Position numbers and translations under genes: made by a program. Below the pieces are notes generated by a model, which saw only the letters and a program-made list of their open reading frames with translations, had not been told where the DNA came from and ran no database searches. A stretch of 61,508 nt of DNA from Acidimicrobiia bacterium (lineage in GTDB: Bacteria; Acidobacteriota; Terriglobia; Bryobacterales; Bryobacteraceae): NCBI GenBank assembly GCA_016871315.1, contig VFZE01000034.1, positions 1 through 61,508 of the forward strand. Direction: 5' to 3'. Within the stretch, counting starts at the first letter, position 1, and every line of letters begins with the position of its first letter. Positions 57,461 to 61,508 of the stretch are shown here, piece by piece.

Positions 57461-57490
57461 GGCGTCCCCAGAGTGGACGCGTTTCGAACT
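57461..57490 (+). repeat. Dispersed repeat copy A
   Basis: One of four related ~30-nt copies. Shared core GTGGACRCGTTTCGAACT; copy A has GTGGACGCGTTTCGAACT preceded by a C-rich stretch (CGTCCCC). Confidence 0.65.
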
Positions 57491-57685
57491 CTGGCGCTCG
57501 CACCGGCGTCAGAGCAGAGGCCGTTGTTCGAAGGGCTGCGAGACCTCTCCCCTCTGTTCGCCGCGGGGGCGCAAGCCGTTTGGGGATCGGTTCGCTGCCG
57601 CCCCGGCCGGGTGGCTGAATGATTCCGTATCGCGTCTACCTGGAGCAGGACGTGGACGCGGTGTTGGCAGTTCCAGATCCGAAGT

Positions 57686-59455: not shown

Positions 59456-59926
59456 AAAATGCTACCACTACGCTGCTCAGGTACAGGGCACGCCATTTTC
59501 CCCAGAACCCGGCCCAGTGGCTGGTTGGGGAGAATGAGCGAAGGTGTTATGCCAGCCTCCGGTGGGGATGAGTCAGCCGGTTCCGAACTGATTTCGACTA
59601 CGATTCCGAAGTGGTTCGAGTCCTGGATGGGATCGCCGCTCCGCTGGGTGGCTCTCGAAAGAACATCTCAAGCGCGCGTAATGAAATCAACACGATAGCG
59701 GAGATCAAAAGCAACTACAACTGCCTCCCCGTCGTGGACGCGTTTCGAACTTCGGCGGCCTGTATGCCTGCCGGGCTGAGAGCCTTGTTCCATGAGATGG
59801 AAGGGACGTTCGTGGCTGTTTCTCCCGTCCTGCCCGGATGTGCTCCCCCGCGGCTGGATGTGCGCCGAAGCGCCCGGCAGCATCTGCGAGGCAACTGAGC
59901 GCACCGGTCACCACGAATGAGTCGAA
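59456..59926. other. Intergenic region with repeat copy B
   Basis: About 470 nt between the propeller gene and the vapC stop. No gene, RNA or promoter could be supported. Copy B of the repeat is at 59723-59752. Confidence 0.5.
59723..59752 (+). repeat. Dispersed repeat copy B
   Basis: Core GTGGACGCGTTTCGAACT with GCCTCCCC in front; same orientation as A. Confidence 0.65.
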
Positions 59927-60358
59927 CTATGGGCTCAGCGGATTCACCCAGCGCAAACCGTCGAACCGCGCAAAATCGCCGTCGGTCGAGCAGAGGTCTA
60001 GTCCGTGCTCCATCGCAAGGGCTGCCAGATGGGCGTCGGGAATCAACTTCGCCCCTCCGCCGAGCCGGATCAACAGGCGTCCCAGTATTTCCTGGTGGCG
60101 ATGGCCCGGCAGCGGTACCCATGCATTGCGGGCGCTCAGCCAATGCTCCACCTGCCCCCACGCCACGTTCATCGGCGCAGGTCTCTGGTAGATCCGTGGA
60201 TTGGCGACCACCCGCATGAAACCGAGCAGGCACTCCCATGGAAGCCCCACGCGGGCCGATTCGCTCAGCTTCCCATCCAGCCACCGGACCGCCGGCTCGT
60301 GCATAGGAGCCCCACGGTCAAAGGCATACACCAGCAGGTTGACGTCCACCAGAATCAT
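59927..60358 (-). CDS. vapC: PIN-domain ribonuclease toxin VapC
   Basis: A 143-residue PIN toxin. Catalytic acids visible are Asp5 (VDVNLLVYA), Glu42 (WECLLGF), Asp108 (IPDAHLAAL) and Asp126 (STDGDF). It would cleave RNA when free of its antitoxin. The start overlaps the antitoxin stop (ATGA), the usual arrangement. Confidence 0.94.
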   Translation of the reverse strand: MILVDVNLLVYAFDRGAPMHEPAVRWLDGKLSESARVGLPWECLLGFMRVVANPRIYQRPAPMNVAWGQVEHWLSARNAWVPLPGHRHQEILGRLLIRLGGGAKLIPDAHLAALAMEHGLDLCSTDGDFARFDGLRWVNPLSP

Positions 60359-60603
60359 CTGCCCGACCTGCTCCGTTCCACCTCATCCAGAACTTCCCAG
60401 ACATTGTCCAGATTCGGAAAATAGCAGTTCCCCAAATCAACCGGCTGGGTGCGAAATGCCGCCGTTTCAGATGGCGAATTCAATCGCGCCAGTCCCTCCC
60501 GCAGAGCGTCGTTCACGATCTGTTTGAAAGTCGTATCTCTCGCCTTCCTCATCTGCTCAAGCAATACGGCCACGTCGTCATCGAGGCTGAGAGTAGTTCT
60601 CAT
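60355..60603 (-). CDS. Ribbon-helix-helix antitoxin VapB-type
   Basis: An 82-residue protein. The N-terminus MRTTLSLDDDVAVLLEQMRKARDTTFKQIVNDALREGL is a ribbon-helix-helix DNA-binding fold; the C-terminal half (LGNCYFPNLDNVWEVLDE) would wrap the toxin. It should repress its own promoter with VapC as co-repressor. Confidence 0.92.
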   Translation of the reverse strand: MRTTLSLDDDVAVLLEQMRKARDTTFKQIVNDALREGLARLNSPSETAAFRTQPVDLGNCYFPNLDNVWEVLDEVERSRSGR

Positions 60604-60644: not shown

Positions 60645-60674
60645 GCCTCCCCACCGTGGACACGTTTCGAACTT
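60645..60674 (+). repeat. Dispersed repeat copy C
   Basis: Core GTGGACACGTTTCGAACT with GCCTCCCC in front. Confidence 0.65.
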
Positions 60675-60765: not shown

Positions 60766-60794
60766 GCGCCCAGCTTGGACACGTCTCGAACTCG
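60766..60794 (+). repeat. Dispersed repeat copy D (diverged)
   Basis: Core TTGGACACGTCTCGAACT, with GCGCCC in front; one base shorter and two changes from copy C in the core. Confidence 0.5.
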
Positions 60795-60946
60795 CCTCCG
60801 CAGCTAATTTAAGAAACAACTTCGGAATAGCCCGTCGCCGGCCCGCGATCGTATCTCGCGATCTCCCTCCTCAACCATCAAAATCTTCCGGCATTGCATT
60901 TCGTTCCCGGCTTCAGTAGCATTGGACCTCGGAGGCGGCGACATTC

Positions 60947-61508
60947 ATGTCCTTTGCTCCTGGCACGAAGCTGGGGCCCTATGAGATCGTTTCGGCGTTG
61001 CCCTCCGCTGACGGCGCCGAGGTATATAAGGCGACTCACGCTGAAGACGCCCGCACGGTAGCGATTCGCATCTTGCCGCAGGAGTGGGCCGGTTCGGCCG
61101 AGTTCTCCTTTCTCGCGGAGCGCTTCGACAACCAGGCCAAGGCCGTCGCCTCGCTCGCGCATCCGCATATCGGCCTGCTCTACGAGATCGGGCGCCAGGA
61201 CGAAGTCGACTTCCTCGTCACCGAGTACCTCGAGGGTGTCACCCTGGAAGCCCGCCTGCAAAAAGGACCGCTGCGCCTGGACCAGGCGATGAACGTCGCG
61301 CTCGCCATCGGCGATGCGCTGGACAAGGCTCACCGCGCTGGCCTCGTGCATCGCGCGCTCCAACCCTCCAACATTATGCTCACCAAGGAGGGCGCCAAAC
61401 TGCTGGATCTGGGACTGGCCGATCTGCGGCCGGCCGCCGCCACCGAACCGGTCCCCAAATCCGCCGCCGTCACCGTCACCGGCGCCAAACCCGCCGCCGA
61501 GACCGGCC
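60947..61508 (+). CDS. Ser/Thr protein kinase-like protein, predicted pseudokinase (3' end outside window)
   Basis: The first 187 residues align with Acidobacterial Ser/Thr kinases (APGTKLGPYEI, ASLAHPHIGLLYEIG, LVTEYLEGVTLEARL, IGDALDKAHRAGLVHR, SNIMLTKEGAKLLDLGLADL). Key residues are changed: the Gly-rich loop is ALPSADGAEVY, VAIK Lys is Arg41, the helix-C Glu is Gln63, HRD Asp is Ala137, the following Lys is Gln139 and DFG is DLG (154-156). It should not transfer phosphate by the usual mechanism. No stop is reached before the window edge, so later domains are unknown. Confidence 0.88.
   Translation, partial: MSFAPGTKLGPYEIVSALPSADGAEVYKATHAEDARTVAIRILPQEWAGSAEFSFLAERFDNQAKAVASLAHPHIGLLYEIGRQDEVDFLVTEYLEGVTLEARLQKGPLRLDQAMNVALAIGDALDKAHRAGLVHRALQPSNIMLTKEGAKLLDLGLADLRPAAATEPVPKSAAVTVTGAKPAAETG

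Follow-up and report, generated by a model that had tools for sequence, protein, structure and literature searches.

A kinase-like gene at the end of the contig

The window analysed here comprises 61,508 nucleotides and has the same length as contig C34 of this genome (G000; 61508 bp). An ATG-started frame on the + strand (60947-61507) runs for 187 codons and reaches the contig end without a stop. The features of the locus are as follows (homologues A1, A2, A4 and G196 are described below):

60894..60922, + strand: promoter-like TTGCAT-N17-TAGCAT, 53 bases before the ATG (pattern common to A1, A2 and A4)
60931..60935, + strand: ribosome-binding-like GGAGG (direct reading)
60947..61508, + strand: predicted pseudokinase domain, 187 codons, cut by the contig end (open reading frame, PF00069, alignment, model)
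61001..61018, + strand: degraded Gly-rich loop, residues 19-24, PSADGA (GAGGMG in active relatives; alignment)
61067..61069, + strand: Arg41 replacing the VAIK Lys (VAIR); Arg also in A1, A2 and G196 (alignment)
61133..61135, + strand: Gln63 replacing the helix-C Glu; A1 and A2 share this Gln, G196 retains Glu (alignment)
61355..61363, + strand: Ala137-Leu138-Gln139 replacing the HRD Asp and the catalytic-loop Lys (alignment)
61406..61414, + strand: Asp154-Leu155-Gly156 (DLG), metal-binding Asp retained (alignment)

Comparison of the 187 residues with the Pfam Pkinase family (PF00069) gave 71.1 bits against a cut-off of 31.7, placing the protein within the Hanks-type fold. An AlphaFold2 model of the fragment (mean pLDDT 86.1, pTM 0.74) shows the N-lobe strands, helix C and the first large C-lobe helices, and its top Foldseek matches were mycobacterial PknA and PknI, followed by PknB. 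As modelled, the protein retains the kinase fold and not the active site.

The window protein was aligned with 21 kinases that it had itself retrieved as a search query. Conservation reaches at least 90% of the 22 rows at each of Lys41, Glu63, Asp137 and Lys139, four positions at all of which the window protein deviates; its catalytic loop reads HRALQPSN, compared with HRDLKPSN in active relatives. The initial annotation had described a protein with all main catalytic residues replaced. This is correct for Arg41, Gln63, Ala137, Gln139 and the Gly-rich loop, but Asn142 and the DFG Asp154 (within DLG) are retained. The further statement that the sequence is very close to active kinases was too strong, as the closest intact-motif match shares 56% identity; a Candidatus Solibacter MAG is among the nearest named relatives. 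In PMC12599244 a pseudokinase is defined by loss of at least one of the β3 Lys, HRD Asp and DFG Asp, and here the Lys and the HRD Asp are gone while the DFG Asp is present. Judged from its sequence, the gene almost certainly encodes a pseudokinase. WNK kinases have a relocated ATP lysine; an equivalent relocation is not suggested in the window protein, since its Lys28 (of VYKA) also occurs in the active partners described below.

Just upstream, a VapC-family toxin gene lies on the - strand at 59927-60603 (TIGR00028, 123.5 bits; cut-off 73.6), and a small gene upstream of vapC, with a 4-base overlap and no NCBIfam match, is probably the antitoxin. In addition, a 19-base element like GTGGACACGTTTCGAACTT occurs in four + strand copies in intergenic-looking DNA (57473-57491, 59734-59752, 60656-60674 and 60775-60793; 0.01 expected by chance).

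Homologues with graded losses and an adjacent kinase

Homologues 62-66% identical to the window protein were found in the one other genome of the genus examined (G001):

L088:2195-4987: A1, 66% identical
L088:9030-11828: A2, 63% identical
L099:2-2536 (contig C537): A3, partial, 62% identical over 99 residues

A fourth copy, A4, is represented by its first 27 codons at the end of contig C537. Among the matches inspected from a search of 237 genomes of the family, one further homologue was recognised, in a genome of another genus (G196). It is 57-60% identical to A1-A3 across its length, and a full-length search with this protein at E 1e-200 matched only G001 and itself. The best match in 399 sampled genomes of the class (G280) is also a pseudokinase, the sole full-length row with such losses among the 20 best class loci.

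Both A1 and A2 have VA[IL]R, a helix-C Gln and a degraded Gly-rich loop, and A1, A2 and A3 share HRDL[HN]P, replacement of the Asn by Ser and an intact DFG. The G196 homologue carries VVIR, HRNLQPWK and DFG with the helix-C Glu retained, and the G280 protein VVVT, HRGLNPSN and DFG. Thus, the β3 Lys and the catalytic-loop Lys are gone in every A-type relative sequenced at those sites (for the latter, 4/4 among A1, A2, A3 and G196), and every A-type member with sequence at the DFG Asp has it. All five relatives with sequence covering GTxxYMAPE (A1, A2, A3, G196 and G280) have lost its P+1 Thr, which is present in 4/4 partners. The HRD Asp is retained in G001 and replaced elsewhere by Ala (window), Asn (G196) or Gly (G280); because A1-A3 keep this residue, its loss is lineage-specific, while the other losses are shared. 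The initial annotation had named orthologues with intact HRD and VAIK residues as evidence against a pseudokinase: the HRD Asp is indeed intact in A1-A3, but the VAIK position is Arg in 3/3 homologues sequenced there (A1, A2 and G196).

Assembly error as the source of the substitutions was ruled out by those common to independent assemblies. Arg41 and Gln63 recur in G001, and Arg41 and Gln139 in G196, so these are not sequencing errors; Ala137 is present in this assembly only. Motif checks of the examined DNA found 77 of 88 rows canonical and, in a further set, 57 of 68. The non-canonical rows of both checks were A-type rows, fragments, a frame-broken partner gene (B3, below), the G280 row and a kinase altered at one position. 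This last protein (L169:1204-3846, G092) has Gln in place of the catalytic-loop Lys (HRDLQPGN) and is otherwise a canonical kinase of the same group.

Full-length A members are ~930 aa long and consist of a pseudokinase, a hydrophobic helix and a PD40 β-propeller. In all four homologues with downstream sequence (A1, A2, A3 and G196), the A gene is followed by a kinase of a sister clade, designated B. The G001 partners B1 and B2 resemble A in having a Pkinase domain, a hydrophobic helix, a PD40 propeller and a length of ~930 aa, and differ from it in that none of the six canonical residues is lost and the P+1 Thr is present. PD40 repeats were found in A1, A2, A3, B1 and B2, and every full-length A and B protein has a single strongly hydrophobic segment, whose start falls at residues 289-322 (by simple hydropathy, which is not a topology prediction). 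In A1 the helix is at residue 308; the window protein is cut before that point.

Stop and start codons overlap by four bases in 3/4 A-B pairs: as ATGA in A1/B1 and likewise in A2/B2, and as TTGA in G196. The A3-B3 gap is ~130 bases. In these draft assemblies B3 is frame-broken near its start and the G196 B gene runs out of frame after 537 codons; therefore just two A-B pairs have both genes intact. The B1-A2 interval holds the remnant of a further kinase gene. In G280 the intact kinase gene leads and the pseudokinase follows, its start two bases past the kinase stop, indicating that the pseudokinase-first order is not a rule.

The promoter-like pattern TTGnnn-N17-TAGnAT is found 53 bases before the ATG in the window, A1 and A4, and 39 bases before it in A2. 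Within 120 bases of 45 kinase starts (picked by text pattern in the examined sequences) it occurred at four, and those four are the A genes; the background was 15 matches in 2.25 million positions on both strands, with overlapping loci counted more than once. The pattern is absent upstream of the G196 A gene, and in the window alone its single match is not significant (0.30 expected).

Phylogeny, selection and the missing continuation

In a kinase-domain tree that omitted matches below 90 bits, short rows and A3, the window protein, A1 and A2 formed a clade (100/100) sister to the B clade (99/96). With G196 added (88 rows cut to 75; bootstrap not settled), the A clade held the window protein, A1, A2 and the G196 homologue (100/99), with B at 100/96 and A+B at 100/98. 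A and B were also sisters in a propeller tree (86/89), in which the G196 B protein fills 35% of columns. By these trees, a tandem duplication is older than the split of the two genera, and one of the copies lost catalysis. The position of the G280 pseudokinase was discordant: it grouped with clade A in a kinase tree (99/91; 40 hand-picked rows, bootstrap not settled), in line with its missing P+1 Thr, but with its own partner kinase in the propeller tree (100/99), and full-length BLAST sided with the latter (50% vs 42-45%). This would be explained by either gene conversion or a second, parallel loss.

Pairwise Nei-Gojobori ω for the kinase domain was 0.17-0.21 within the genus-level A clade and 0.15-0.32 between A-type members and G196. 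On the window's own branch (148 shared codons) dN was 0.158 and dS 0.856, giving ω 0.184 with a central 95% of 0.087-0.338 over 300 resamplings (299 usable); the branch values are Nei-Gojobori estimates with dS near 1. The window pseudokinase is under purifying constraint. This comparison had been proposed in the initial annotation, and its suggestion of a pseudokinase kept by selection is borne out both by the low ω and by the losses, most of which are common to the homologues. For the active pair B1-B2, ω was 0.08 in one estimate and 0.07 in another, and for the G196 B gene it was 0.31 against B1 and 0.18 against B2; as these partner values are mixed, a difference in constraint between A and B is not firm.

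Searches of this genome with full-length A2 and B2 did not find the rest of gene A or a B orthologue; the best full-length matches besides the window were 43% and 48% identical, respectively. A 95-residue piece at C1:134.4k, 71% identical to B2, was rejected as the partner because it belongs to a frame-broken kinase beside another kinase. The DNA of A1 and A3 is 97-99% identical over codons 90-209, then 92%, and then 57-90% in later blocks (beyond codon 240), and contig C537 begins inside this near-identical tract. Assemblies would break at near-identical copies, which is a possible reason for such an end and, for the window, a presumed one. The window contig ends within the stretch that is near-identical among the G001 copies, where C537 begins, which places the expected continuation in an assembly gap. 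We infer that the propeller part and the active partner of this genome lie past the contig end. Separately, the A1/A3 pattern (L088:2195-4987 vs L099:2-2536) is a sign of gene conversion of the kinase part, with the propellers diverging.

A candidate regulatory partner of the adjacent kinase

The reading we favour, with a probability of roughly 0.55, is that the window gene is a selectively kept pseudokinase, the first gene of a two-gene receptor-kinase operon, and acts as regulatory partner of the adjacent kinase. Following tandem duplication, one copy would have lost catalysis and taken on the regulatory role in a membrane receptor kinase of two proteins. A and B would be made together in the membrane and pair there; the pseudokinase would transfer no phosphate, and instead act as an allosteric switch on its partner once the propellers detect an extracytoplasmic signal. 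Arg at the ATP-lysine site, together with the retained DFG Asp, may still permit nucleotide binding as a structural switch. The binding or sensing role proposed in the initial annotation is narrowed by these data, which point to a partner that regulates the active kinase of the adjacent gene, a role that we infer at the protein level.

Precedents for pairing exist. Dimerisation has been proposed to activate the bacterial receptor kinases PknB and PknD (PMC6333020, in the portion available), and an inactive histidine kinase has been reported to act through heterodimers with its active paralogue (PMC9491836, as far as the available text extends). In the latter case ChrS, like the proposed A protein, is an inactive paralogue that heterodimerises with an active one (HrrS) and alters signalling; unlike A and B, these are histidine kinases of a different fold, and the inactive form was a laboratory mutant.

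Alternatively, the pseudokinase could stand alone, serving a different protein as scaffold or as nucleotide-sensing switch, with the adjacent kinase merely the other product of duplication and no physical pairing, although this seems rather unlikely. In a survey of 62 rows, 14 of which were followed by a kinase, a kinase was directly next for 6/8 degenerate rows and for 8/47 rows with a recognisable catalytic loop (7 rows lacked the motif); the rows were hand-sorted from longer regions chosen for kinases, the paralogues are not independent and a few rows are fragments. Tandem kinases without inactivation are thus common here, and adjacency alone is no proof of a complex. Bacterial scaffold pseudokinases such as EssB/YukC are known (PMC12599244, in the part available), and the A and B propellers are only about 45% identical. 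Against a stand-alone role, the pair is retained in two genera with stop/start overlap in three of four cases, and in G280 the genes are reversed yet still adjacent.

It is improbable that the window copy is decaying, with its HRD and DFG-region changes and long branch reflecting loss of function and the contig end hiding a frameshift or stop. The window protein has lost more catalytic residues than the G001 copies, its terminal branch (0.35) exceeds those of A1 (0.17) and A2 (0.13), and broken kinase genes are present in both this genome and G001. Decay is opposed by the ω of the window branch, the conserved promoter-like element, the confidently modelled kinase fold and 187 codons without a stop. 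The initial annotation had looked to a frameshift or stop soon downstream as counter-evidence; none was found, although the available frame covers just 187 of an expected ~930 codons. Finally, a reduced or different nucleotide-dependent activity, like that of SelO or SidJ, is very improbable: the DFG Asp of the A-type members and the HRD Asp of G001 would fit it, as would the new activities known in other bacterial pseudokinases (PMC12599244, in the available part), but the Gly-rich loop, catalytic-loop Lys and P+1 Thr are all gone, and no alternative site is conserved, since the HRD position (Asp, Ala or Asn) and the Asn position (Asn, Ser or Lys) vary among members.

The window protein was compared with described kinase and pseudokinase families. 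A 2025 review recognises five all-pseudokinase families among 42 bacterial Ser/Thr kinase families (PMC12599244; this and the following comparisons refer to the part of the review available). Like the window protein, ActPs2 of Actinobacteria has Arg for the β3 Lys and lacks the HRD Asp, but it has HRN and usually a DFG deletion, whereas the window has HRA and retains DLG; membership was rejected. DLHK and CP1 are likewise bacterial Ser/Thr pseudokinases retaining some motifs; both are without transmembrane regions, CP1 carries COG3899 and DLHK loses the DFG motif, whereas the window keeps DLG and A1 has a hydrophobic helix, and both families were rejected for the window protein. Assignment to the PASTA kinases (NF033483) was also rejected, with 117.9 bits for the window and 201.6 for A1 against a cut-off of 450, and PD40 rather than PASTA in A1. 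A term search of PMC12599244 returned no occurrence of acidobacteri, propeller, tandem, WD40 or PD40. A propeller pseudokinase-kinase pair was not found described in the literature searched (including the available parts of PMC12599244, PMC6333020, PMC3174227 and PMC9491836, and mostly outside subscription journals).

Other degenerate kinases were found in this genome, two of them in pseudokinase-kinase gene pairs from other subfamilies, which speaks for the favoured reading. At C46:11543-13837 a TPR-type pseudokinase (HTELTPGN, VNFG) has a stop codon in ATGA overlap with the start of a second TPR-type gene, a kinase whose motifs are intact (pair at L138:1544-6039, G000:C46:11543-16038); no close relative of the pseudokinase was found in 236 other family genomes, the best match being 36% identical. 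At C1:309961-311118 a protein with SGF in place of DFG ends 11 bases before a kinase gene:

L132:1462-4130 (G000:C1:309961-312629), with relatives L233-L246: short pair, pseudokinase then kinase

Relatives of this protein, active kinases included, occur at E 1e-45 in 157/237 family genomes, and the short pair type is present in many genomes of the family. A member without the DFG Asp was found in 14 of the 15 best loci (its own locus included), and in 13 of these the gene directly downstream encodes a kinase that has the ATP-site Lys, HRD Asp and DFG Asp. Twelve of these 13 kinases have Ser or Thr at the catalytic-loop Lys and so are not fully canonical. A degenerate kinase of 433 codons on contig C2 (L136:1305-2606, G000:C2:119304-120605; HAELRPSN, no DFG) has no same-strand kinase beside it and is divergent from a short kinase-propeller remnant. 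A 1352-codon kinase fusion on contig C20 (L145:886-4941) has VVIS for VAIK with HRD and DFG intact, and a Lys after its Gly-rich loop (GEGGQKSV) is possibly a relocated ATP lysine.

Bacterial pseudokinases have been catalogued, and few have a known function. A pseudokinase beside its own active paralogue has an obvious candidate partner and offers a direct test. The graded losses among the members, with the HRD motif kept in one species and lost in two ways in others, provide a natural series for what a dead kinase must keep. The pairing of dead-kinase and live-kinase genes suggests a receptor composed of one dead and one live kinase. More tentatively, the window propeller pair, the C46 TPR pair and the short pair at C1:310-312k might reflect repeated construction of two-protein receptor kinases in these bacteria, through tandem duplications in which one copy was then inactivated. 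If so, catalytically dead subunits would count among the regular design elements of Ser/Thr signalling in bacteria, as a parallel to the paired receptors of animals.
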